From NCBI RefSeq assembly GCF_003751945.1, contig NZ_RJKL01000001.1, positions 6,882,001 to 6,946,000 of the forward strand: DNA of 64,000 bases, written 5' to 3'. The notes under the pieces are model-generated. The model was not told the origin of the DNA, did not search any database, and saw nothing but the letters and a program-made list of their open reading frames with translations. Below are positions 5,035 to 57,290 of this stretch, piece after piece (positions within the stretch are counted from its first letter, which is position 1; each line of letters opens with the position of its first letter). The DNA is from Couchioplanes caeruleus (lineage in GTDB: Bacteria; Actinomycetota; Actinomycetes; Mycobacteriales; Micromonosporaceae). The position numbers and the translations under genes are program-made.

Positions 5035-7182
5035 GTGACGGCGAAGGGCGGAGATCGGGAACCGGCGGCGCTGCTGCCGGTCGCGCGCGTCTGCGTCGAC
5101 GTGCCGCTGCCCCACCTCGACCGGCCCTTCGACTACCTCGTCGCGGCCGCCGACGACGTCGCCGCGCAGCCCGGCGTGCGGGTGAAGGTGCGGTTCGCGG
5201 GCCAGCTCGTCAACGGCTTCCTGCTCGAGCGGGTGGAGTCCAGCTCACACGCCAAACTCGCCTATATCGACAAAGTGGTCTCGGCCGAGCGCGTCCTCGA
5301 CCCCGAGATCGCCCGCCTCGCTCGCGCGATCGCCGACCGATACTCCGGAAGTCTTCCCGACGTCCTGCGGCTCGCGGTGCCGCCCCGGCACGCCCGCGTC
5401 GAGGCCGAGACCACCACCGCCGGCCCTGGGGTCGCTGCGCCTGCGTCCGGTGCGCCTGTGTCCGGCGAGCCGGCGCCTGCCGAGCGCGCCGAACCCGCCG
5501 AGCCGGTCGGTCCCGCCGAGCCGGTCGGTCCTGCCGTGCCCGTCGGCCCTGCCGAGCCGGTCGGTCCTGGCGTGTCGGCGGGCCTTGCTACGTCTGCTGG
5601 TCCCGCTGCGCTCGTTGGTTCCGCTCCGCCGGCCGGTTCCGGCTGGGGCGCCTATCGCGCGGGTGGTCCGTTCCTTCGGGCGCTGGCCCAGGGGAGCGCG
5701 GCGCGGGCGGTGTGGTCCGCGTTGCCCGGTGAGGACTGGCCGGCGCGAATCGCCGAGGCCGCGGCGGCCACGGTGCGGGCGGGGCGGGGTGTGGTCGCCG
5801 TCGTGGCGGATGCCCGGGATCTCGACCGGCTCGATCGTGCGCTGACCACCGCGCTCGGTGACGGACGGCATGTGGCGCTCCATGCCGCCGCCGGGCCCTC
5901 CGAGCGGTACCGACGGTTTCTGGCGGCGAGCCGCCACCGGGTTCCCGTCGTCGCCGGGACGCGGGCGGCCATGTTCGCGCCCGTCGCCGATCTCGGGCTC
6001 GTGGTCATCTGGGACGACGGCGACGACCTGCACGCCGAGCCGCGGGCGCCCTATCCGCACGCCCGGGAGGTGCTGCTCACCCGGGCCCAACTGGCCGGGT
6101 GCGCTGCGCTCGTCGGGGGCTTCGCGCGTACGGGCGAAGCGCAGCAGCTCGTGGAAACCGGGTGGGCGAAGGAGATCACGGCCGCCCGGGACGTGCTGCG
6201 GGCGCGGTGTCCCGCCATCGCGCCCACGGGTGACGATCCGCAGCTCGCCCGGGACCCCGGTGCGGTGACCGCGCGGCTGCCGAGCCTGGCCTGGCAAACC
6301 GCCCGGCAGGCGTTGCAGGCCGGCACGCCGGTGCTCGTCCAGGTGCCCCGGCGAGGCTATCTGCCGTCGGTGGCCTGTGCCGAGTGCCGTACGCCCGCCC
6401 GATGCCCGCACTGTTCCGGGCCGCTCGGGCTGGCCGGTGCCCGCTCGGTGCCGGCCTGTCACTGGTGCGGGCGCGCCGCCGCTGCGTACGCGTGCCCCGC
6501 CTGCGGTGGCCGCCGCCTGCGCGCCTCGGTGACCGGCGCCCGGCGGACGGCCGAAGAGCTGGGGCGGGCCTTTCCGGGAGTGCCGGTGCGCACCTCCGGG
6601 CGCGACGAGATTCTCGACACCGTCCCGGGTGACGCCGCGGTGGTCGTGGCCACGCCGGGCGCCGAGCCGATCGCCGAGGGCGGGTACGGCGCGGTGCTGC
6701 TGCTGGACACCTGGGCGCTGCTGACCCGTGCCGACCTGCGCGCGGCGGAGGAGACGATGCGCCGGTGGCTGTCCGCCGCCGCGCTCGCCCGGCCGGGCCC
6801 GGCGGGCGGAAGGGTCGTGGTCGTCGCCGATGGGTCGCTCGCCCCGGTGCAGGCCCTGCTGCGGTGGGATCCGGGCTGGTTCGCGGCCCGCGAGCTGGCC
6901 GAGCGCCGCGAGCTGCGCTTTCCGCCGGCGGCCCGGTTCGCGAGCCTCACGGGCCGGGCCGAGGCGGTCGCCGAGCTGCTCGCGGCGACCCGCCTGCCCG
7001 ACGACGCGGAGGTGCTCGGGCCCGTACCGGCCCCCGACGAGCAGGAACGCATGCTGGTGCGCGTCTCCCGCGGCCACGCCGCCGCTCTCGCCCGCGCCCT
7101 GCACGAGGGCGCCGCGGTGCGCAGCGCGAAGAAGGCGCCACTACCCGTGCGCGTACAGATCGACCCGGCGGAGCTGTTGTGA
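5035..7182 (+). CDS. priA: Primosomal protein N' (PriA), helicase motifs degenerate
   Basis: PriA recognises stalled forks and starts replication restart. The start is placed at GTG 5035 (715 residues), where PriA homology begins; the frame is open further upstream but that part overlaps metK. The N-terminal 3'-DNA-binding domain (about residues 15-125) is followed by a Pro/Ala/Gly/Val-rich linker (about 127-202), the helicase-like core, and a zinc region with paired cysteines CAECRTPARCPHC and CHWCGRA...CPAC near 447-500. No Walker A GxxGxGKT is present, and the DEEH position reads WDDGDD. Loss of these motifs is known for actinobacterial PriA, which probably acts without ATP-driven unwinding. 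Confidence 0.9.
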   Translation: MTAKGGDREPAALLPVARVCVDVPLPHLDRPFDYLVAAADDVAAQPGVRVKVRFAGQLVNGFLLERVESSSHAKLAYIDKVVSAERVLDPEIARLARAIADRYSGSLPDVLRLAVPPRHARVEAETTTAGPGVAAPASGAPVSGEPAPAERAEPAEPVGPAEPVGPAVPVGPAEPVGPGVSAGLATSAGPAALVGSAPPAGSGWGAYRAGGPFLRALAQGSAARAVWSALPGEDWPARIAEAAAATVRAGRGVVAVVADARDLDRLDRALTTALGDGRHVALHAAAGPSERYRRFLAASRHRVPVVAGTRAAMFAPVADLGLVVIWDDGDDLHAEPRAPYPHAREVLLTRAQLAGCAALVGGFARTGEAQQLVETGWAKEITAARDVLRARCPAIAPTGDDPQLARDPGAVTARLPSLAWQTARQALQAGTPVLVQVPRRGYLPSVACAECRTPARCPHCSGPLGLAGARSVPACHWCGRAAAAYACPACGGRRLRASVTGARRTAEELGRAFPGVPVRTSGRDEILDTVPGDAAVVVATPGAEPIAEGGYGAVLLLDTWALLTRADLRAAEETMRRWLSAAALARPGPAGGRVVVVADGSLAPVQALLRWDPGWFAARELAERRELRFPPAARFASLTGRAEAVAELLAATRLPDDAEVLGPVPAPDEQERMLVRVSRGHAAALARALHEGAAVRSAKKAPLPVRVQIDPAELL
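5497..5568 (+). repeat. Four tandem 18-bp units inside priA
   Basis: Units 5497-5514, 5515-5532, 5533-5550 and 5551-5568 encode AEPVGP, AEPVGP, AVPVGP and AEPVGP, with the third unit the most diverged. They form the core of the linker between the DNA-binding and helicase-like parts of PriA. The repeat is in frame, so copy-number change would alter linker length without breaking the gene. Confidence 0.85.
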
Positions 7183-48475: not shown

Positions 48476-49906
48476 GTGCCGGAGACCGAAGGTCCGACCA
48501 GACTGTGGGGTGGCCGGTTCGCCGGTGGACCGGCCGACGCGTTGGCACGGCTGAGCGTCAGCGTGCACTTCGACTGGCGGCTGGCGCCGTACGACATCGC
48601 CGCCTCGCGCGCGCACGCCCGGGTGCTGGCCGGCGCCGGCCTGCTCGACGCCGACGAACTGGGCAGGATGCTGGCCGCCCTCGACGACCTGGAGTCGGCG
48701 TGCGCGGCGGGCGAATTCCGGCCCACCATCGAGGACGAGGACGTGCACACCGCGCTGGAACGCGGTCTGCTGGAACGCCTCGGCGCCCTCGGCGGCAAGC
48801 TGCGCGCGGGCCGCTCCCGCAACGACCAGGTCGCCACCGACCTGCGCCTCTACCTGCGCGACCACGCTCGCGGTGTGGCCGCCGCGGTGGTGGAGCTGGC
48901 CGACGCCCTGATCGAGCAGGCCGGCCGGCACATCGACACCCCGGCGCCGGGCCTGACCCATGTGCAGCATGCCCAGCCGGTCAGCTTCGGGCACTGGCTG
49001 CTGGCCCACGTCCAGCCGCTGCTGCGCGACCTGGAACGGCTGCGCGACTGGGACGAGCGCACGGCGATCTCGCCGCTGGGCTCCGGCGCGCTGGCCGGCT
49101 CGTCGCTGCCGCTGGACCCGGCCGCGGTCGCCAAGGAGCTGGGTTTCAAGGCCCCGGTGCAGAACTCCATGGACGGCGTCGCGGACCGCGACTTCGTGGC
49201 CGAGTTTCTCTTCATCACCAGCCTCGTCGGGGTGCACCTCTCCCGCCTCGGCGAGGAGGTGGTGCTCTGGACCTCCACCGAGTTCGGCTGGGTGATCCTC
49301 GACGACGCGTTCGCCACCGGCTCGTCGATCATGCCGCAGAAGAAGAACGCGGACATCGCCGAGCTGGCCCGGGGCAAGGCCGGGCGGCTCATCGGGGGCC
49401 TGGTCGCGGTGCTGACCATGCTCAAGGGCCTGCCGCTGACCTACGACCGCGACATGCAGGAGGACAAGGAACCCGTCTTCGACGCGGTCGACACGCTCCA
49501 GCTCCTGCTGCCGGCGCTGGCGGGCATGATCTCCACGATGACCGTACGGGTGGACAGGCTCGCCGCCGCGGCGCCGGTCGGCTTCTCCCTGGCCACCGAG
49601 GTCGCGGACTGGCTGGTGCGCAAGGGCGTCCCGTTCCGCGATGCGCACGAGATCACCGGTGGGCTGGTGGCCCTGTGCGCGGCCCGCGAGTGCGAGCTCG
49701 AGGACGTCACCGACGACGACCTGAAGACGGTCAGCGAGCATCTCGACCCGTCCGTCCGCGAGGTCCTGTCGGTCCGCAGCGCCCTGGCCGCACGGACCAC
49801 GCCGGGCTCGACCGGCCCCGGGCCGGTCGCCGACCAGCTCCGCACCGCCTCGGACAAGCTCGACGGCTGGCGTGAATGGGCGATCGAACGGGTCGTCCCG
49901 CGCTGA
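48476..49906 (+). CDS. argH: Argininosuccinate lyase
   Basis: Last step of arginine synthesis; splits argininosuccinate to arginine and fumarate. 476 residues from GTG 48476 after GAGGAGTGAGG. Fumarase-superfamily signature GSSIMPQKKN is intact, as are the RSRNDQVATD and THVQHAQPV segments. It is separated from argG by the opposite-strand dapE, so it has its own promoter. TTGACA (48441-48446) is a perfect -35 but lacks a good -10 at the right distance. It borders the decayed accessory region. Confidence 0.96.
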   Translation: MPETEGPTRLWGGRFAGGPADALARLSVSVHFDWRLAPYDIAASRAHARVLAGAGLLDADELGRMLAALDDLESACAAGEFRPTIEDEDVHTALERGLLERLGALGGKLRAGRSRNDQVATDLRLYLRDHARGVAAAVVELADALIEQAGRHIDTPAPGLTHVQHAQPVSFGHWLLAHVQPLLRDLERLRDWDERTAISPLGSGALAGSSLPLDPAAVAKELGFKAPVQNSMDGVADRDFVAEFLFITSLVGVHLSRLGEEVVLWTSTEFGWVILDDAFATGSSIMPQKKNADIAELARGKAGRLIGGLVAVLTMLKGLPLTYDRDMQEDKEPVFDAVDTLQLLLPALAGMISTMTVRVDRLAAAAPVGFSLATEVADWLVRKGVPFRDAHEITGGLVALCAARECELEDVTDDDLKTVSEHLDPSVREVLSVRSALAARTTPGSTGPGPVADQLRTASDKLDGWREWAIERVVPR

Positions 49907-49933
49907 GCGGACGGGCCCGGAACACAGGGAGTA

Positions 49934-50036
49934 AGGCGGGTGATCCTCGGGATCGTCCACAGATAGTCGATCATCATCCTGAGCAGTTTCTCCGGGACTT
50001 CGCAAGGATGCGGCGATGATCGGTGATCACCCGCCT
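49934..50036. repeat. 103-bp inverted-repeat element after argH
   Basis: AGGCGGGTGATC (49934-49945) and GATCACCCGCCT (50025-50036) are perfect 12-bp inverted repeats. Inside, CGATCATC and GATGATCG, then CATCCT and AGGATG, can also pair, so most of the segment could fold into one long hairpin. It resembles a small inverted-repeat element. No target duplication is obvious. It overlaps the end of the regulator pseudogene. Confidence 0.5.
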
Positions 50037-50530
50037 CACCCGCCTCACTGGCCTTGCTGGCCCCAGCTTCGCGGCGACCTGTGCCCGGAAGCCGGCTAGC
50101 TTGCGCTCATCAATGCGGAAAATCCGCGGCCAGACGGGCTCGTCGTTCGAGGCGCGAGCGAGCCGACCTTCGGCGTGATCCAACTTCGCCAGAGCGTTCC
50201 GGTCCCTATCTGGGCAAGGGCGAGCGACTCGATGGCGTCCATCCGGATTCCGGCGATGGCCGGAGACGAGCGCGGGAGCCGGTGGCGGGCATCTGCGATC
50301 AGTCGCACGCTTTCGCTCCTGTCACCGCAACTTGTGACAAATTGGCTCATGCCCAGGTGGCCCGACCGTTCTGCCGCGCGTACGGCAAGTTGATAGTGGG
50401 CGACGGGCGTTGGCTCCGTCTTCAACATCGACGTATAGCCAAGCGACTAGACCTGCCGTCTCACTGAGTACGGCAAACAGCCGGCGGGAGCCGGCGGTAG
50501 GTGGCGGATGCCGGACGACGAGAACGCGAG
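49974..50530 (-). pseudogene. Remnant of an XRE/TPR-type transcriptional regulator
   Basis: Three consecutive minus-strand frames join into one alpha-helical repeat protein. Frame A ends LFAVLSETAGLVAWLYVDVED near 50405. Frame B continues HYQLAVRAAERSG to MDAIESLALAQIG near 50210. Frame C gives DRNALAKLDHAEGRLA and ends after IDERKLAGFRAQVAAKLG. Each change needs one base. The joined product matches the C-terminal TPR part of actinobacterial XRE regulators; the DNA-binding N-terminus is gone. Such regulators commonly lie beside RiPP clusters like the one following. Confidence 0.7.
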
Positions 50531-50547
50531 CGCCGCGTAACCGGGAT

Positions 50548-50572
50548 CGGGCAACCCAACACGGGTTGCCCG
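50548..50572 (-). terminator. Hairpin after the acetyltransferase fragment
   Basis: CGGGCAACCC (50548-50557) and GGGTTGCCCG (50563-50572) form a perfect 10-bp stem with a 5-base loop. It lies just past the acetyltransferase stop on the minus strand. No T-tract follows. Confidence 0.5.
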
Positions 50573-50596
50573 CTCCACACTCTCCCGGGGAGTTCC

Positions 50597-50985
50597 CTAC
50601 GAGGGCGCGCCACTTGAATCGTCGCGCCACTCTCGATCTAGTAGTGAGTAGAGCAGAGAATCGCGCCAAGCGCCGTTGGTGAATACGTGGTCCCTCAATC
50701 GACCTTCGGGCATGAATCCGAGGCGTGCGAGAAGTCGTTGCGACGCCCGATTGTCTGGGCCACACGCAGCCTGTAGGCGGTGCAGACGAAGGGTGTCGAA
50801 CCCGAATGTGACCATGAGGTTGGTTGCCTCAGTCGCATAGCCCTTGCCCCAATCCGAACGTCGTATCGCGTAGCCGAGTTCACCGCTTCGGTCACGACCT
50901 AGTCCGATCCGCACGAAGCCGATCAGCGTGTCAGTGCTGTCCGCGACGGCTAGATTGCGTGACGGCCCGAAGCGGGCGCGCGCTC
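50597..50985 (-). pseudogene. 5'-truncated GNAT acetyltransferase (RimJ/RimL type)
   Basis: The C-terminal two thirds of a GNAT protein are clear: IGFVRIGLGRDRSGELGYAI, the acetyl-CoA loop RRSDWGKGYATEA, NRASQRLLARLGFMPEG, and the LLDREW ending. The first 60 to 70 residues and the start codon are missing; upstream of about 50985 the frame has no family sequence and abuts the ribosome site of the divergent small gene at 51008. It is therefore probably non-functional. Confidence 0.7.
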
Positions 50986-51007
50986 TGCCACCTGGGAGGG
51001 CGGACGG

Positions 51008-51205
51008 ATGGCGATGTATTCCGGCGGTGAGCTGATCGAAATGGCTCAAGCGATGCTGGAGCGGCACACGGTGTCGAGGGCCGATGGTCGATGCGTGTCC
51101 TGCGGCGTTCTCGGCCCGCGCGCAAGCCACGAGCGGGCGGCACGGGTGTTCGCGCTGGCGTTGCGCCTACCCCAGCGGGTGCCGGGGTTGACCAACCGCA
51201 TTTGA
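51008..51205 (+). CDS. Small CxxC protein, function unknown
   Basis: 65 residues from ATG 51008, 7 bases after GGAGGG. It contains GRCVSCGVLGP and a basic, helical C-terminus ARVFALALRLPQRVPG. Small proteins of this kind are common in actinobacterial accessory regions near XRE regulators. The two cysteines could be half of a metal site. No enzyme role is evident. Confidence 0.55.
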   Translation: MAMYSGGELIEMAQAMLERHTVSRADGRCVSCGVLGPRASHERAARVFALALRLPQRVPGLTNRI

Positions 51206-51256
51206 TCGGCACTCGCCGTGCGGATGCGCCTTCATGGTTCGAGGCGGCGAGTTGAG

Positions 51257-51577
51257 GTGCCAGCGGCACCGATGCCGCGCTCCGGTGACGTGGTGTACCT
51301 CGGCCTGGCCGCGAACGTGCAGTTCGGCGGGAACCGGGGCTTCTACTTCCGGGTGATCAGGGTCCATGACTGGACGACTTATGAGGGCTGGATGTGGCTA
51401 GACGGCTACCAGCTCAGCCAAGGAGGCGAGGCGGTAGAGCGACGTTCCGTCTTCGTCCAGATTGCCGGGCTACGGCCCGCGCCGCAGGTGCCGGCATGCA
51501 CGGCACCCCCGACGGGCGAGCGCGCACCGTTGGGGAGTGCGCGCCCGCTCCGGCGCGGCCGACACGAGCGACGGTGA
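51257..51577 (+). CDS. Small conserved hypothetical protein
   Basis: 106 residues from GTG 51257; ATG 51272 is an alternative. A compact beta-rich domain, GDVVYLGLAANVQFGGNRGF through WMWLDGYQLSQGGEAVERRSVF, ends at IAGLRPAP, followed by a variable tail of about 35 residues. I have seen this domain pattern in actinobacterial genomes without assigned function. It sits in the row of small genes leading to the graspetide precursor. Confidence 0.55.
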   Translation: MPAAPMPRSGDVVYLGLAANVQFGGNRGFYFRVIRVHDWTTYEGWMWLDGYQLSQGGEAVERRSVFVQIAGLRPAPQVPACTAPPTGERAPLGSARPLRRGRHERR

Positions 51578-51584
51578 GGGTCTG

Positions 51585-51845
51585 ATGCAGCAGCTTTCGA
51601 CCAGCGCGCGCGGCCTGGCCACCGTGGGCGCCCACACCCCAGATGCCGACTTGTGTGAAGTGCTGGCCCGCGCGGCGGCAATCGTCGCCGCGCACACCGT
51701 GCGCGACGGCCTGTGTGCCGGATGCCGCGATTGGTGGGCGCGATTGGCGCCGTTCCCGTGCGAACAGGTGCGGTGGGCGCGGGCAATCCGCGATCGGTAC
51801 GGCGACGCCTGTGCAACCGGGCGAGAGTCCGGCGGTGCCGCGTGA
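51585..51845 (+). CDS. Small Cys-containing protein, function unknown
   Basis: 86 residues from ATG 51585, 4 bases after GAGGG and 7 bases after the previous stop. Helical, with CAGCRDWWARLAPFPC in the second half, suggesting a three-cysteine site. Its spacing suggests co-transcription with the preceding and following small genes. No recognised family. Confidence 0.5.
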   Translation: MQQLSTSARGLATVGAHTPDADLCEVLARAAAIVAAHTVRDGLCAGCRDWWARLAPFPCEQVRWARAIRDRYGDACATGRESGGAA

Positions 51846-51930
51846 GCCGATCTCGCAGTACGCCACCCGCGCGGGCGCCTCCGGGAAACCGACCGCACAT
51901 CGCCCCGCACTACTCCTGCCAGGAGGCATG

Positions 51931-52272
51931 ATGTCCCCGACCGCCCCCGTTCTGTCCAGTCCAGTGACCGATGACCCGCTGTACCCGGCGGCCGGGTTCT
52001 TGCCGCTCGGCCGCCCGCTGGGTGCGGTCGACGGCGACGACATGGCGCCAACCTCGGCCGACCGGCGGCCGTTCGGGTTGCGCTTCGCCGTCGTGCCGGC
52101 GCACCCGATCCCGGTGGACCTGACGACGGTCCGCTACGACCCCGATCGACAGATGGCGGTCGACACCACCGGCGCGCCGGTGCTCGGCAAGCACTCGACC
52201 GGGGCGACAAGCACCCGCACCTCGGACGGGCACAAGAGCATGGATTCCGACACCGACCACACCGAGGACTGA
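51931..52272 (+). CDS. Graspetide (ATP-grasp RiPP) precursor peptide
   Basis: 113 residues from ATG 51931, four bases after AGGAGG. The leader has RPFGLRFAVVP and the tail is a Thr/Ser/Asp-rich core, GKHSTGATSTRTSDGHKS then MDSDTDHTED, the layout of the actinobacterial putative ATP-grasp-target RiPP family. In that family an ATP-grasp ligase links core Thr/Ser/Lys side chains to Asp/Glu. The ligase (damaged) starts 4 bases after its stop. The precursor itself shows no damage. Related products are fuscimiditide-type peptides. Confidence 0.8.
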   Translation: MSPTAPVLSSPVTDDPLYPAAGFLPLGRPLGAVDGDDMAPTSADRRPFGLRFAVVPAHPIPVDLTTVRYDPDRQMAVDTTGAPVLGKHSTGATSTRTSDGHKSMDSDTDHTED

Positions 52273-52276
52273 GCCG

Positions 52277-52735
52277 GTGAGCGACGGGCGCACGCTGCTA
52301 GTGCTGACCCAGCGATACGACGCAACCGCTGACTTCGTGGTGGCGGAACTGGCAGCACGGGACCGGCCGGTGTTCCGGTGCGACCCCGGCGACTTTCCGC
52401 AGACGTTGACGCTCGTCGCGCTGTGGGGCGAAGGCTGGCACGGCAGCCTCCGCCAGCCCGGCCGCCCTGAGGCCGCCGGGCTGGATTGGCGCACCGATTA
52501 CGACAGCCTGTCGTACTCCGTGGTCACCGTGCCCGACCCCGTACGCGAGGCGGTGCGGCGCCTGCTGGCCCGGCTGCGGCTGCGCTTCGGTGCGCTGGAC
52601 TTCATCGTCACCCCGCACGATGAATGGATCTTCCTGGAGATCAACCCCAACGGCCAATGGGCGTGGCTGCAAGACGCCACCGGACTACCCATCGCCGCCG
52701 CGATAGCGGACGCTCTGACCAAGGAGACGACATGA
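52277..52735 (+). pseudogene. ATP-grasp peptide maturase lacking its central region
   Basis: 152 residues in an open frame, about half the 300 to 330 expected. Residues 1-58 (RTLLVLTQRYDATADFVVAEL to GSLRQPGR) are the N-terminal domain of TgmB-type maturases. Residues from about 65 (GLDWRTDYDSLSYSVV) to the end are the C-terminal part with LRFGALDFIVTPHDEW and FLEINPNGQWAWLQD. The 150 to 170 residues between, which include most of the ATP site and substrate-facing part, are absent at about 52450-52485. The deletion is in frame. Activity is very unlikely. Confidence 0.75.
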
Positions 52736-53239
52736 CCGATACCGCCCAACAACTGCGTAGTGGGCTCGTGGACGAGCTGACCGGCCGTGGCTGGCTCACC
52801 GAGGCGTGGCGGCCCGCATTTGCCACCGTGCCCCGACCGCCTTCCTGTCCCGCTTCTTCCGTCAGACCCCGGACCGCACCCGGTGCGAAGCGGTCGACGC
52901 GGGCGAGCCCGGGGCGTTGGAGCTGATCTACTCCAACAGCGTGCTCCCTACCCAGCTCGACGGCGATGACGCCCGCTGGGATGAGGCCCGTCGCGACGGC
53001 CCGATCAAGGGCGTGCCGACCTGTTCGAGCACCCATCCGGGCCTCATGGCGATCATGCTGGACGCGCTCGACGTGGCCGACGGGCACCGTGTGTTGGAGG
53101 TCGGCGCCGGTACCGGCTACAACGCCGCGCTCATCGCCCACCGGCTCGGTTCGCCGCTGGTCACCACCGTCGACATCGACGCCGGTTCGGTGCAGCGGGC
53201 ACGCGAGGCGTTGAGCACGGTCGGGTATGCCGTCACTAA
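52732..53239 (+). pseudogene. Protein-isoaspartate-type methyltransferase, frameshifted and truncated
   Basis: ATG 52732 overlaps the ligase stop. The first 34 codons give MTDTAQQLRSGLVDELTGRG and stop making sense after ATVPR; one base missing near 52834-52837 moves the homology to the next frame, AFLSRFFRQTPDRTRCE. That frame continues through VLEVGAGTGYNAALIA (SAM site) and ends its match at VGYAVT near 53235. The last half of the enzyme is missing. In graspetide clusters such methyltransferases act on a core Asp to make aspartimide. Confidence 0.75.
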
Positions 53240-53989
53240 TACCGGGCCGACGGCATCCGCCGGCAATGGCTCGACGTCGGCCTCGACACCGGGCCCTCCG
53301 ACCGCGGAACCGCCGAACGGATCCTCACCCGCTTCTACCGGCGGCACGGCCGGGGACGGCCCCGGTTCGTCTGGGTGGACTCCCCGGCAGCCGCCCTGCC
53401 GCACACGACCGGCATCCCTGGCCACGACGACCTGCACGCGTGGCTGCGCCCGTTGCCGCCGCGCGGCCGTCCGCCCGTCGCCGTCGACATCGCCGCGAGC
53501 TGGTCCCACTTGTTGGCCGCCCTCGAGGCCGCCGCCGACCACCCGGATCTCGAACCGGCGCGGCACGTCCGCAAGGACGACAAGCCGTGGCCGGAGCTGC
53601 CGCCCGAGGCGGCCCTGGAGGCGGGCGTGCCCTTGCGCGTGGTGGTGCGCCGAGGCGTCCAGGACGCGTTGCGGACCGCGCTGATGGAGAACGTCGCGCT
53701 GCCGGTGCGGGCCGCCCTCGGGCCACCGGCCCGGCTGCCGATCTGCTGGTACGGCCAGCAGGACGCGTCCTGGATCGCCCAGCACGACGTCCTGCGCCGG
53801 CTGGGCCTGTCCCATCCGGCACCGTGTGACATCACGGACCTCGACGACTGGGCGGCCCTCGCCCGCGCCGCCGGCTGGTGGTGGCCCTGCCAGGAGGTCT
53901 GCGTGGCCGTGGAACGGCCGGCGCGCATCGGACCGGAGGTCGTCGTGTACCGCGACGGCAGTCGGCGCCGGGGTGGCTCAGACGGATAG
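53240..53989 (+). pseudogene. DUF6745-type protein, 5' truncated, fused behind the methyltransferase remnant
   Basis: The frame opens right after a TAA (53237-53239) with YRADGIRRQWLDVGLDTG and has no start codon near its beginning; the first is GTG 53375. The C-terminus has the family hallmark WYGQQDASWIAQHDVLRRLG and AGWWWPCQEVCVAVERP. The missing N-terminus and the abrupt junction with the methyltransferase at 53231-53240 indicate a deletion that removed the end of one gene and the start of the other. It ends 12 bases inside the convergent permease gene. Confidence 0.65.
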
Positions 53990-54895
53990 CCGGTGATCGT
54001 CCTCCGCCGGGCTGGTCTGCCCCGGGATCCGCGTCGCGTCCCGGGCTGCGGCCGCCCGGCGGACGAGCGTGACCGCGACCGTGACGAGGATCGCCGTGCC
54101 GGTGACGATGCCCACCGCGAGGGTCGGGACGTCGAGGAGCTTGAGGGCGCTGGCCAGCAGCACGACCACCAGGGCGGTGCGCACGATGCCGGCCGGAGCG
54201 CGCGAGGAGATGCGGGCGCCGAGCAGGACGCCCGGGATCGAGCCGAGCAGGACCGAAGCGGTGAGGTCGAGGTGCAGGTCGCCGAAGAAGGCGTGCCCGA
54301 CCGCGGCCGACAGGACCAGCGGGACCGCCTGCACGAGGTCGGTGCCGACGAGGTCGTTGGCGCGCAGCTTCGGGTAGAGCGCGAGCAGGGCGACGATGAT
54401 CAGGGATCCGGAGCCGACGCTGGTGAGCCCGACGATGATGCCGCCCACGACGCCCAGCAACAGCGTCGGCACCGGGCGTACGGTGATCGGCGCAGGCGGG
54501 CCGTCGCCGCGCTGGCGGCGGCTCACCCAGGCCTTGAGCAGCAGGCCGCCGGCGGCCAGCAGGAGCGCCACCCCGAGCGCCACCTTGATCGTGTGCTGCA
54601 CCGAGGCGTCGTCGCCGAGCAGCCGCAGCACGAGGACTCCGAGGAATGCGCTGGGCACGCTGCCCGCGCAGAGCCAGGCCACGAGCTTCCAGTTGACCGT
54701 CCCGCGCCGGGCGTGCACCCAGCCGCCGAAGGGCTTCATGACCGCGCTGGCGGCCAGGTCGCTGGAGACCGCCGCCACCGGCGGGACGCCGAAGACGAGC
54801 ACGAGCAGGGGGGTCATGAGGGCGCCGCCGCCCATCCCGGTGAGTCCGACCACGATGCCGACGCCGAGTCCGGCGAGCGCCAGGGTGAGATCCAT
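53978..54895 (-). CDS. TauE/SafE-family permease
   Basis: 305 residues from ATG 54895. About eight membrane segments. The two internally related halves start GLGVGIVVGLTGMGGGALMT and GVVGGIIVGLTSVGSGSLI, the repeat typical of the family, which exports sulfite or organosulfonates or moves other small anions. The substrate cannot be set. The frame continues upstream without ribosome site or homology. The C-terminal cytoplasmic tail is short. Confidence 0.88.
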   Translation of the reverse strand: MDLTLALAGLGVGIVVGLTGMGGGALMTPLLVLVFGVPPVAAVSSDLAASAVMKPFGGWVHARRGTVNWKLVAWLCAGSVPSAFLGVLVLRLLGDDASVQHTIKVALGVALLLAAGGLLLKAWVSRRQRGDGPPAPITVRPVPTLLLGVVGGIIVGLTSVGSGSLIIVALLALYPKLRANDLVGTDLVQAVPLVLSAAVGHAFFGDLHLDLTASVLLGSIPGVLLGARISSRAPAGIVRTALVVVLLASALKLLDVPTLAVGIVTGTAILVTVAVTLVRRAAAARDATRIPGQTSPAEDDHRLSV

Positions 54896-54989
54896 CGGTC
54901 GAGTCTCGGCAACAATCCCTGCTTTGTCTACTAACCGGGTCGAGTTTGTGGACTTTTCCTGCCGCCGTCCCACCCATTGGCACGACGGG

Positions 54990-57290
54990 TCAGGCGGGCA
55001 CCGGCCCGGCCGGGCGCAGCAACCCCGCGATCTCGTCGCCGGACATCGGCCGCGCGAAGTGGAAGCCCTGGGCGTAGCGGTAGCCCGCCTGGTGCAGCCG
55101 GTGTGCCTGGTCCGCGGTCTCGACGCCCTCGGCGACGGCCTGGATGCGCAGGCCCGAGGTGATGCCGATCAGGCTCTCGACGATGACCGCCTCCGGGCTC
55201 GCCGTGGTGACGCCGTCGACGAACGACTTGTCCACCTTGAGGACGTGCACCGGGCAGTCGACCAGCAGGCTCAGCGACGACTGGCCGGTGCCGAAGTCGT
55301 CCAGCGCGACCCGGATGCCCAGCTCGCTGAGCCCGTGGATCGCGGCCAGCGCGGCGCCGGTGCCCAGTACCGCCGTCTCGGTGACCTCGGCGACGATCAT
55401 GGCCGGGTCGACACCGGCATCCCGGATCGCGGCCTCCACCTCGGCGACGAACCCGGGCTCGCTGAGCTGGCGGGCCGACACGTTGACGCTGACCCGCGCC
55501 GGTGCGGCGTCGCCGTGGTCGCGCCGCCACGCCGCCGCCTGGGCGACCGCCTGCGCGAACACCCAGCGGCCCAGCTCGATGATGGCGCCGTTGCGTTCGG
55601 CCAGCGGGATGAACACCGCCGGAGAGATGTCGCCGTGCTGGGGGTGGTGCCAGCGCAGCAGCGCCTCGACGCCGGCGATGCGCCCGTCGGGCAGCTCGAC
55701 GATGGGCTGGTAGAGCACCCGGAGCTCGCCGCGGCCGAGCGCCTGGCGCAGGTCGGCGCCGAGGCGGGCGTCCTGGTCGGCGAGCCGGTCCATCGCCGGG
55801 TCGAACCACGCCCAGCGGCCGCCGCCGTCGTTCTTGGCCGCGTACATCGCCACGTCGGCGCGGCGCAGCAACTCGCCGGGAGTGTCGCCGGGCGCGCTGG
55901 CGGTGACGCCGATGCTGATCCGCGGCACCATCTCGTGCCCGTCGACGGTGAGCGGCTCCTGCACCGCGCTCACCAGCCGCCGCAACAAGGTGGCGGCTTC
56001 GTCGCCGGTCAGGCCGGGCAGCAGCAGGGTGAATTCGTCGCCGCCCAGCCGGGCGACCGTGTCGACGTCGCGCAGCCGCTCGTGCAGGCGCCGGCTGACG
56101 GCCTTCAGCAGGGCGTCGCCCGTGCCGTGCCCGAGCCGGTCGTTGACGACCTTGAAGTCGTCCAGGTCGAGAAGCGCCACGAGGAACTCCTCGCCCCCGG
56201 CGAGCTGGTCGGTGACCCGCTCCTCGAAGTTGGCCCGGTTGGCGATCTCGGTGAGCGTGTCGTGGCGCACCTGGTGTGCCAGCTGCGCCTGGTACTCGCG
56301 CAACTGGTGCAGGCTGGCGTCGACCGTACGCAGCAGATGGGAGTTCTCCCGCAGCGTGGTGACCTGACGGGCGACCACCAGCGCGGTGATCGCGACGGTG
56401 CAGGCGGCGATGACCTTGCCTTCGGCCGAGCGGGCGATGTCGGTGCCCAGCAGCATCGCGTCCATCGCGGCCACCGCCAGGTACGGCACCACGCTGAAGC
56501 GTCGCGGCGCGGGTCGCGTCCTCGCGGCGGCGAGGTCGCAGCGGACCTGGCGCCGACCGGCGAGCTGGGCGCAGAAGGTGGCGATCGGCACCGCGACGAA
56601 GGCCGAGTTGAGCCGGGGGTGGGACTCGAGGACCAGCGTCAGGCAGGTCGAGGCGCCCGCGGCGCCGATGCCGAACGACACCAGATGCATGGCACGCCGG
56701 TCCAGCGAGCCGGCGCCGGCGTATGCGACCTTGGCGAAGGCGATCATCGACACGGCCGCGGCGATCGCGATCAGCAGCGCCGGGACGGCCGAGCCGGTCA
56801 GCGAGGTCCACGCCTCCATCCTGCGCAGCGAGAAGTGCCACACCAGCAGGCCGCCGGTGATCAGGATGATCCCGGTGTCGAGACCGAAACGTACCCATTC
56901 GGCCCGGGACCGCTGCCACGTCGGCAGCCTCAGCAGCGCCCACACCGCCAGCCCGAGGACGACCAGGTAGAGGGTGACCGACACGGGGCCGAAACGCTGG
57001 GTCCCGCCGGGTACGGAGACCGCGTCGCGTGCGTTGGAGACGGACGCCACGGCCAGCACCACGCAGCAGAGCATGCCGTGGCGCCAGAACCTGCGCGTGG
57101 CGGCGTCGAGATCGACCCGGTGGGAGGCCTGCCGGCACGCGGAGGCCGCGAGCAGGCACATCACCGGCAGAGGCGTCCAGCCCGCCACGGGGTGCGGGAC
57201 GTCGGCGAAGAACCCGGCGACGAATCCGGCCGCGCTGAACGCCAGGAGTGAGGCTCCCACGATCAGGGGGAGGCGGGCGCGGACCGGCAT
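54990..57290 (-). CDS. Membrane GGDEF-EAL cyclic-di-GMP protein
   Basis: 766 residues. About nine membrane helices (residues 5-315) form the sensor, a short coiled coil follows (TTLRENSHLLRTVDASLHQL), then GGDEF (residues about 345-500, intact ARLGGDEF and DLDDFKVVNDRLGHGTGD) and EAL (about 515-760, with GVEALLRW, NVSARQL and DDFGTGQSSL). Both catalytic motifs look intact, so it could make or break c-di-GMP. It differs from the soluble GGDDF protein at 12161. No neighbours suggest the signal. Confidence 0.92.
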   Translation of the reverse strand: MPVRARLPLIVGASLLAFSAAGFVAGFFADVPHPVAGWTPLPVMCLLAASACRQASHRVDLDAATRRFWRHGMLCCVVLAVASVSNARDAVSVPGGTQRFGPVSVTLYLVVLGLAVWALLRLPTWQRSRAEWVRFGLDTGIILITGGLLVWHFSLRRMEAWTSLTGSAVPALLIAIAAAVSMIAFAKVAYAGAGSLDRRAMHLVSFGIGAAGASTCLTLVLESHPRLNSAFVAVPIATFCAQLAGRRQVRCDLAAARTRPAPRRFSVVPYLAVAAMDAMLLGTDIARSAEGKVIAACTVAITALVVARQVTTLRENSHLLRTVDASLHQLREYQAQLAHQVRHDTLTEIANRANFEERVTDQLAGGEEFLVALLDLDDFKVVNDRLGHGTGDALLKAVSRRLHERLRDVDTVARLGGDEFTLLLPGLTGDEAATLLRRLVSAVQEPLTVDGHEMVPRISIGVTASAPGDTPGELLRRADVAMYAAKNDGGGRWAWFDPAMDRLADQDARLGADLRQALGRGELRVLYQPIVELPDGRIAGVEALLRWHHPQHGDISPAVFIPLAERNGAIIELGRWVFAQAVAQAAAWRRDHGDAAPARVSVNVSARQLSEPGFVAEVEAAIRDAGVDPAMIVAEVTETAVLGTGAALAAIHGLSELGIRVALDDFGTGQSSLSLLVDCPVHVLKVDKSFVDGVTTASPEAVIVESLIGITSGLRIQAVAEGVETADQAHRLHQAGYRYAQGFHFARPMSGDEIAGLLRPAGPVPA

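Follow-up and report, generated by a model that had tools for sequence, protein, structure and literature searches.

Is the graspetide locus beside argH in Couchioplanes caeruleus a single biosynthetic unit in decay, and do all of the gene pieces found there belong to it? The locus lies in a stretch of 64,000 nucleotides (the window; RefSeq assembly GCF_003751945.1, contig NZ_RJKL01000001.1, positions 6,882,001 to 6,946,000), to which the coordinates of features below refer. An initial annotation of this stretch, made from the sequence alone, had described seven pieces as pointing one way, to a regulated ribosomally synthesized and post-translationally modified peptide (RiPP) system that is now broken, and had drawn attention to an association of DUF6745 with graspetides. 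All seven pieces are present, as profile matches and alignment with a cluster of Micromonospora sp. WMMA1363 demonstrate. Five of them do point to the graspetide unit, whereas the GNAT and DUF6745 pieces point elsewhere. The locus is very probably an imported graspetide cluster of the PIMT-associated (group-13-like) kind, which was later broken and now abuts pieces of unrelated genes.

The stretch between argH and the TauE/SafE (TSUP) gene consists mostly of gene fragments, together with a few small open reading frames (ORFs):

49910-53975, no strand: the whole island between argH and the TauE/SafE (TSUP) gene, 4.07 kb
50057-50488, minus strand: remnant of an XRE/NsdA-family TPR regulator, about residues 173-325 of the 418 of the WMMA1363 regulator
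50597-50974, minus strand: 5'-truncated GNAT acetyltransferase (PF13302, 77.1 bits)
51008-51205, plus strand: small gene A, with a 1-bp deletion near 51191; the intact frame would reach about 51255
51257-51577, plus strand: small gene B, open frame
51585-51845, plus strand: small gene C, open frame, with relatives in Salinispora and Micromonospora clusters
51931-52272, plus strand: graspetide precursor, intact, 113 amino acids, with C-terminal GKHSTGATSTRTSDGHKSMDSDTDHTED
52277-52735, plus strand: ATP-grasp ligase remnant, 152 amino acids in one open frame
52732-53231, plus strand: N-terminal remnant of a PIMT-type methyltransferase, about residues 1-167 of 381, with a 1-bp deletion near 52838
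53233-53966, plus strand: piece of a DUF6745-type gene (31.4 bits; cut-off 27)

The TIGR04186 precursor family was detected in 4 of the 67 genomes of the genus and in 27 of the 354 genomes of the family. The closest intact forms of the cluster were found in Micromonospora sp. WMMA1363 (G279) and in Salinispora, not in congeners. Alignment with intact clusters, which the initial annotation had proposed, recovered the full set of genes, regulator included, in WMMA1363, and this supports the claim that a regulated unit once existed. The WMMA1363 cluster (G279:C1:4203742-4208760, L119) comprises, in order, a divergent XRE/TPR regulator of 418 amino acids, gene A (82 amino acids), gene B (116 amino acids), gene C (with a frame change), the precursor (112 amino acids in the frame used here, 101 in the database), a complete ligase (318 amino acids, 457.8 bits; cut-off 350) and a methyltransferase (381 amino acids, 440.7 bits; cut-off 380) that overlaps the ligase by ATGA. 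Its regulator, next to gene A, scores 189.5 bits against the NsdA family (cut-off 75). The window is colinear with this cluster at 79-89% DNA identity including the regulator, with 83% over 50978-52469 and 89% over 52470-53231; colinear identity of 83-89% over 2.2 kb excludes chance resemblance. In contrast to the window, the WMMA1363 cluster is complete save for the frame change in gene C, and nothing in it matches the stretches of GNAT or DUF6745.

DNA identity to four Salinispora-type genomes (G148, G179, G213 and G292) is 72-86%. G179 is Salinispora fenicalii CNT-569 and G213 is S. pacifica CNR114, while G148 is linked to a protein cluster that bears the name of S. arenicola, and G292 is presumably S. 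tropica CNB-440. Colinearity with the window extends, in clusters such as those of S. fenicalii CNT-569 and S. pacifica CNR114, over genes A and C, the precursor, the ligase and the methyltransferase, and the Salinispora ligase is 88% identical in protein sequence to that of WMMA1363. These clusters differ in having no match to gene B and no full-length relative of the regulator alongside, and S. fenicalii has a methyltransferase frameshift of its own.

Comparison with WMMA1363 shows the exact lesions of the window cluster and confirms that the locus is in decay. The ligase, annotated as lacking its middle, indeed matches TIGR04187 only at positions 1-59 and 229-312, positions 60-228 being absent, and scores 189.7 bits against a cut-off of 350 for a complete member. 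The cause is a net in-frame deletion of 498 bp (166 codons) at about 52466-52470, found as the same net loss against all five relatives; this is the in-frame junction reported earlier. Aligned with graspetide ligases of known structure (5ig8, 9bou and 7m4s), the missing region corresponds to the central part of the protein, which in this family carries the ATP-binding lysines. The methyltransferase is frameshifted and truncated, as described. It matches TIGR04188 at positions 27-160 of 363 in a frame differing from that of its start and reaches 162 bits (cut-off 380); no methyltransferase homology was found beyond 53231, an end that recurs against all five relatives. The rest of the S-adenosylmethionine (SAM) domain is gone, as is the C-terminal extension, which PMC10787088 gives as common to RiPP-associated PIMT homologues. 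Judged from sequence, neither ring formation nor the methyltransferase step should occur with the window enzymes.

The remaining cluster genes are damaged to different degrees. The regulator has the two frameshifts and the missing N-terminus that were annotated, but its C-terminus is lost too: relative to WMMA1363 it shows one 1-bp insertion, one 1-bp deletion, a 24-bp deletion and the loss of both ends. Two minus-strand fragments match the NsdA family weakly (17.4 and 18.7 bits; cut-off 75), and the regulator is identified through its alignment with the WMMA1363 protein. The small genes are there as annotated, apart from an overlooked frameshift: the 1-bp deletion makes ORF A 17 codons shorter than in WMMA1363. 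The precursor had been called intact with a Thr/Asp-rich core, and it is. It scores 64.3 bits to TIGR04186 (cut-off 25). When 12 homologues are aligned, their majority consensus is the same as the window core GKHSTGATSTRTSDGHKSMDSDTDHTED, with Thr and Ser as donors, Asp and Glu as acceptors and a single Asp-Gly.

The genes on either side of the island define the site:

48476-49906, plus strand: argH (TIGR00838, 561.5 bits)
53978-54973, minus strand: TauE/SafE (TSUP) gene (Pfam TauE, 159.1 bits), convergent with argH

We searched the 67 genomes of the genus with 48480-54980 and read the spacing of argH and TSUP in selected ones. Only 37 bp separate the two matches in G006 (argH 96% identical), 28 bp in G020 (argH 93%) and 83 bp in G016 (argH 89%), and the site holds no counterpart of the island in any of these three. 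The cluster is apparently a horizontal import, inserted where close relatives have nothing, a feature that the initial annotation had missed. The ligase tree consists of 33 rows, namely 26 of a set of 80 graspetide loci, six further genomes and the window, whose row is filled in 47% of the columns; row L161 is misread (10 stops) and is to be ignored, and it misplaces the drawn root. In this tree the window ligase falls into a six-row clade with Micromonospora and Salinispora (support 100/99). Ligases of Actinoplanes couchii, Symbioplanes lichenis and Actinoplanes sp. RD1 form part of a separate, starred clade of seven rows, which also holds a second Salinispora and Micromonospora type. Horizontal import from a Micromonospora-like donor appears to be the simplest reading of these relationships.

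The two pieces that lie outside the homology with WMMA1363 were compared with 91 graspetide loci (80 + 11 entries, five records occurring twice; 3.7-18 kb per locus). The cut in the GNAT gene lies about where cluster homology begins, and the GNAT stretch has no match in the five closest clusters. Its best relatives in the genus, which was the range of this search, are in G048, G031 and G021 at 67-73% protein identity. Two of the 91 entries carry a GNAT relative, and they are one record (L049 and L173, Symbioplanes lichenis, G029), in which it is a relic with two stop codons about 2.4 kb from the methyltransferase; a single record among 91 entries is not a recurrent association with precursor or ligase.

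The DUF6745 piece aligns without gaps, at 632 of 734 bases (86%), to G000:C1:1672111-1672844 on the same chromosome (L051). It was rightly described as cut at its 5' end, where about 15 codons are missing if the paralogue starts at TTG; its 3' end is also cut, by 8 codons, and the second codon of the homologous stretch is TAA. Homology to DUF6745 starts one base after that to the methyltransferase stops. Across the 354 family genomes the top matches are the paralogue (86%), G020 (81%) and G024 (80%), while the best-scoring match outside the genus has 71%, with short stretches reaching 78%. None of the five closest clusters matches the piece, and DUF6745 occurs in none of the 91 loci. Twelve further matches were found outside the window in the 27 precursor-bearing genomes, none of which has a precursor on its contig at a distance of 100 kb or less (four share a contig with one at distances of at least 120 kb, eight are on other contigs), and no recurrent association with precursor or ligase emerged. 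The dN/dS ratio (nonsynonymous to synonymous substitution rates) of the piece is 0.41-0.46 on its own branch versus 0.22-0.24 on that of the paralogue. A search of the open-licence literature found no paper on DUF6745.

With no occurrence in 91 loci and an 86% paralogue elsewhere in the chromosome, we rejected DUF6745 as a new graspetide gene; on sequence comparison, the association proposed in the initial annotation is an accident of the junction. The view behind that proposal, of a whole unit in decay with GNAT and DUF6745 as native graspetide members, draws on the contiguity of all pieces and on the GNAT relative in the S. lichenis locus. The counts just given speak against it for both genes, as do the five closest clusters, which match neither, so that we consider it very unlikely overall and, for DUF6745, refuted within the loci searched. 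Because the DUF6745 piece is of the type of the genus and the cluster is of Micromonospora type, their junction probably formed after the transfer. By eye, the DUF6745-type gene elsewhere in the genome (L051, 8800-8920) seems to start with a TTG that overlaps, as TTGA, the stop of a conserved 14-codon ORF, MIITERKGVRALGR, which is also present in G020 and G024 (L052, L053).

When did the cluster break? We estimated dN/dS from 509 codons drawn from gene A and the genes for precursor, ligase and methyltransferase, with WMMA1363 as sister, four outgroups and 300 bootstraps. On the window branch dN is 0.054 and dS 0.173, a ratio of 0.31 (bootstrap range 0.21-0.48; none of 300 at or above 1), close to the 0.27 (0.15-0.48) of the WMMA1363 branch. 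By gene, the window ratios are 0.16 (0.03-0.67) for the precursor, 0.30 (0.13-0.65) for the ligase and 0.32 (0.15-0.63) for the methyltransferase. Such low values imply that most of the divergence arose while the genes worked, and breakage was probably late relative to divergence. The suggestion that the break may be recent stands to this extent, but the overlapping junction once cited for it gives no evidence of age: the ATGA shared by ligase stop and methyltransferase start (52732-52735) also occurs in the intact cluster and, as the native arrangement, is uninformative. The intact precursor is expected under a late break, and therefore is not by itself evidence of present use. No report of graspetide pseudogenes was found in the open-licence literature.

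Several observations weigh against import followed by late breakage. G009 (argH 92%) has 11.9 kb between argH and TSUP, with no match to the island within the 19 kb compared, and in G022 (argH 92%) the two genes are on different contigs; since the empty site is thus missing in two of the nearer relatives, we hold the reading slightly less firmly. Only similarity points to the donor, and no intact copy that reaches 95% identity was found. The dN/dS estimate covers neither gene C nor the regulator, nor gene B (19 of 101 codons alignable). Intervals for single genes are wide (for gene A the ratio is 0.39, with a range of 0.14-2.22, and 25 of 300 bootstraps reach 1 or more), the ligase ratio on the WMMA1363 branch exceeds that of the window (0.68, 0.17-3.01), and changes specific to the window are less concentrated at third positions (22, 20, 35) than those specific to WMMA1363 (9, 10, 25), a mild sign of relaxation. 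Some of the damage may also have preceded the arrival of the cluster, although the junction of DUF6745 with DNA of congeneric type favours damage after arrival.

It also counts against this reading that four of the lesions are single-base indels; the frameshifts and deletions might be artefacts of assembly or sequencing. A 498-bp deletion, truncations and joined foreign pieces are not base-call errors, however, and on the strength of the large deletion and the foreign junctions we rejected artefact as the principal cause. On both sides of the island the ORFs, argH and TauE, run uninterrupted over their full length, argH aligns with G006 without gaps over the 510 bp tested, and 53976-54999 shows two gaps at equal total length. 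The chromosome is a single contig of 8,304,475 bases, and the 90% cluster of the precursor has 3 members on 2 contigs. Taken together, these make artefact extremely unlikely. Another explanation is that a minimal system still works, with the shortened ligase or another ATP-grasp enzyme modifying the intact precursor, whose core follows the family consensus and whose ratio on the window branch is 0.16 (0.03-0.67); a distant ATP-grasp protein of 324 amino acids is encoded at G000:C1:7258532 (130.8 bits to TIGR04187, cut-off 350). But the shortened ligase has lost profile positions 60-228, regulator and methyltransferase are destroyed, the other protein scores well short of the family cut-off and is encoded at a distance of 0.3 Mb, and a low ratio is expected anyway if the break is recent. 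We regard a working minimal system as highly improbable, and would give equally little credence to the idea that the 113-residue precursor remains in use and under selection, either without modification or with modification in trans by a different ATP-grasp enzyme of the genome.

Under import and later breakage, a PIMT-associated graspetide cluster from a Micromonospora/Salinispora-type donor would have entered the short argH-TSUP gap in the lineage of C. caeruleus. Function would then have been lost as the ligase suffered its internal deletion, at least four 1-bp indels arose, and both regulator ends and most of the methyltransferase disappeared; the remains would have come to abut unrelated gene pieces, GNAT and DUF6745, at two junctions. 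The intact system would resemble the graspimiditides, for which the chemistry comes from papers on relatives. In a related PIMT-associated graspetide, PMC10787088 describes an ATP-grasp ligase that forms side-chain esters and a methyltransferase that then acts on the ringed peptide, yielding aspartimide and then isoaspartate at Asp-Gly in SsfA. By analogy, the ligase would have linked the side chains of Thr and Ser to the carboxylates of Asp and Glu within the core, the methyltransferase would have turned one Asp of the ringed peptide into aspartimide/isoaspartate, and the XRE-TPR protein would have served as regulator. With a ligase that lacks the central ATP-grasp region and a methyltransferase cut inside its catalytic domain, no modified peptide would be expected today.

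We assigned the cluster to the group-13 type by gene content alone. As far as excerpts of PMC10787088 and PMC13097080 describe group 13, the likeness lies in the order of precursor (TIGR04186), ligase (TIGR04187) and methyltransferase (TIGR04188) and in a C-terminal core rich in Thr/Ser/Asp with Asp-Gly. The same excerpts name pairs of XRE-type regulators as possible neighbours of groups 11 and 13. The window differs in its broken ligase and methyltransferase, in a regulator of NsdA/TPR type instead of the DUF5753-DUF397 pair of those excerpts, and in small genes A, B and C, which they do not describe.

The locus is a well-resolved but ordinary dead import of a known kind of cluster. It offers a clean natural example of gain and loss of a RiPP cluster, one put out of action when its substitutions still bear the mark of purifying selection, and a warning that neighbour-based genome mining can invent an association, such as that of DUF6745, from a junction in a dead locus. 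The most general point is that breakage elsewhere, of the ligase in S. oceanensis and of the methyltransferase in S. fenicalii, suggests repeated loss of this peptide family. In S. oceanensis DSM 45547 (L184, 5001-6748) ligase residues 1-141 and 142-189 lie in two frames, followed by the methyltransferase, with no precursor match in this locus, and the ligase was apparently broken independently; in S. fenicalii (L156) the frameshift is at about residue 306. Both genomes are drafts. Beside a TIGR04186 match in L121 (G204:C1:95000-113000) only ligase query residues 6-125 are matched, and this is perhaps another broken copy. WMMA1363 itself has two copies of the cluster (L119 and L256), with ligase proteins 100%, methyltransferases 98.7% and precursors 74% identical, a recent duplication or conversion with different precursors.

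The insertion site is variable, the argH-TSUP interval among congeners ranging from tens of bases to more than 10 kb (14.9 kb in G058). No near copy of the island was found on plasmids: the 37 records that match it do so at 60-80% identity, and each covers less than 80% of its length. Under distant matches, several Streptomyces plasmids such as NZ_CP108327.1 carry annotated genes for an ATP-grasp peptide maturase (tgmB) and for a methyltransferase; spread may have taken this route. The left edge of the island holds one more feature:

49935-50041, no strand: imperfect palindrome of 107 bp (49930-50045 folds with z = -2.6)

Relatives of the palindrome are found in G050 (83%) and G060 (76%, partial). 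At E at or below 1e-5, 3 of the 354 family genomes have it, counting the present one, and five more have short matches with E of 0.001-0.01. The G050 copy adjoins, by eye, an apparent tRNA 3' end; ARAGORN found no tRNA in L257, L258 and L259, and an Rfam scan returned one match, to a microRNA family, far below cut-off. We rejected a palindrome-bearing mobile element as carrier of the island, given its presence in only 3 of 354 family genomes and the lack of an ARAGORN tRNA.

Gene B matches no Pfam or NCBIfam family and has 80 database relatives. Inspected by eye without hidden Markov models (HMMs), 7 of the 8 loci viewed (L265-L272) show it near apparent XRE regulators, and a small DUF397-like gene accompanies it in 6 of the 8. 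Homology of gene B to a 147-residue protein at a pamtide-like locus of the same genome was not borne out (BLASTP E 0.14). A locus of the same chromosome, L263 (G000:C1:3909000-3921000), carries at 5824-7080 on the minus strand an open PIMT-type methyltransferase of 375 amino acids (329.8 bits to TIGR04188, below the cut-off of 380) and has a divergent XRE-TPR-like gene nearby. By eye, this methyltransferase is directly preceded by a 42-codon ORF rich in Gly, Asp and Lys, beginning MAKHDTTGDGHKKGID, and the two resemble the type I pamtide pair as described in PMC10787088.

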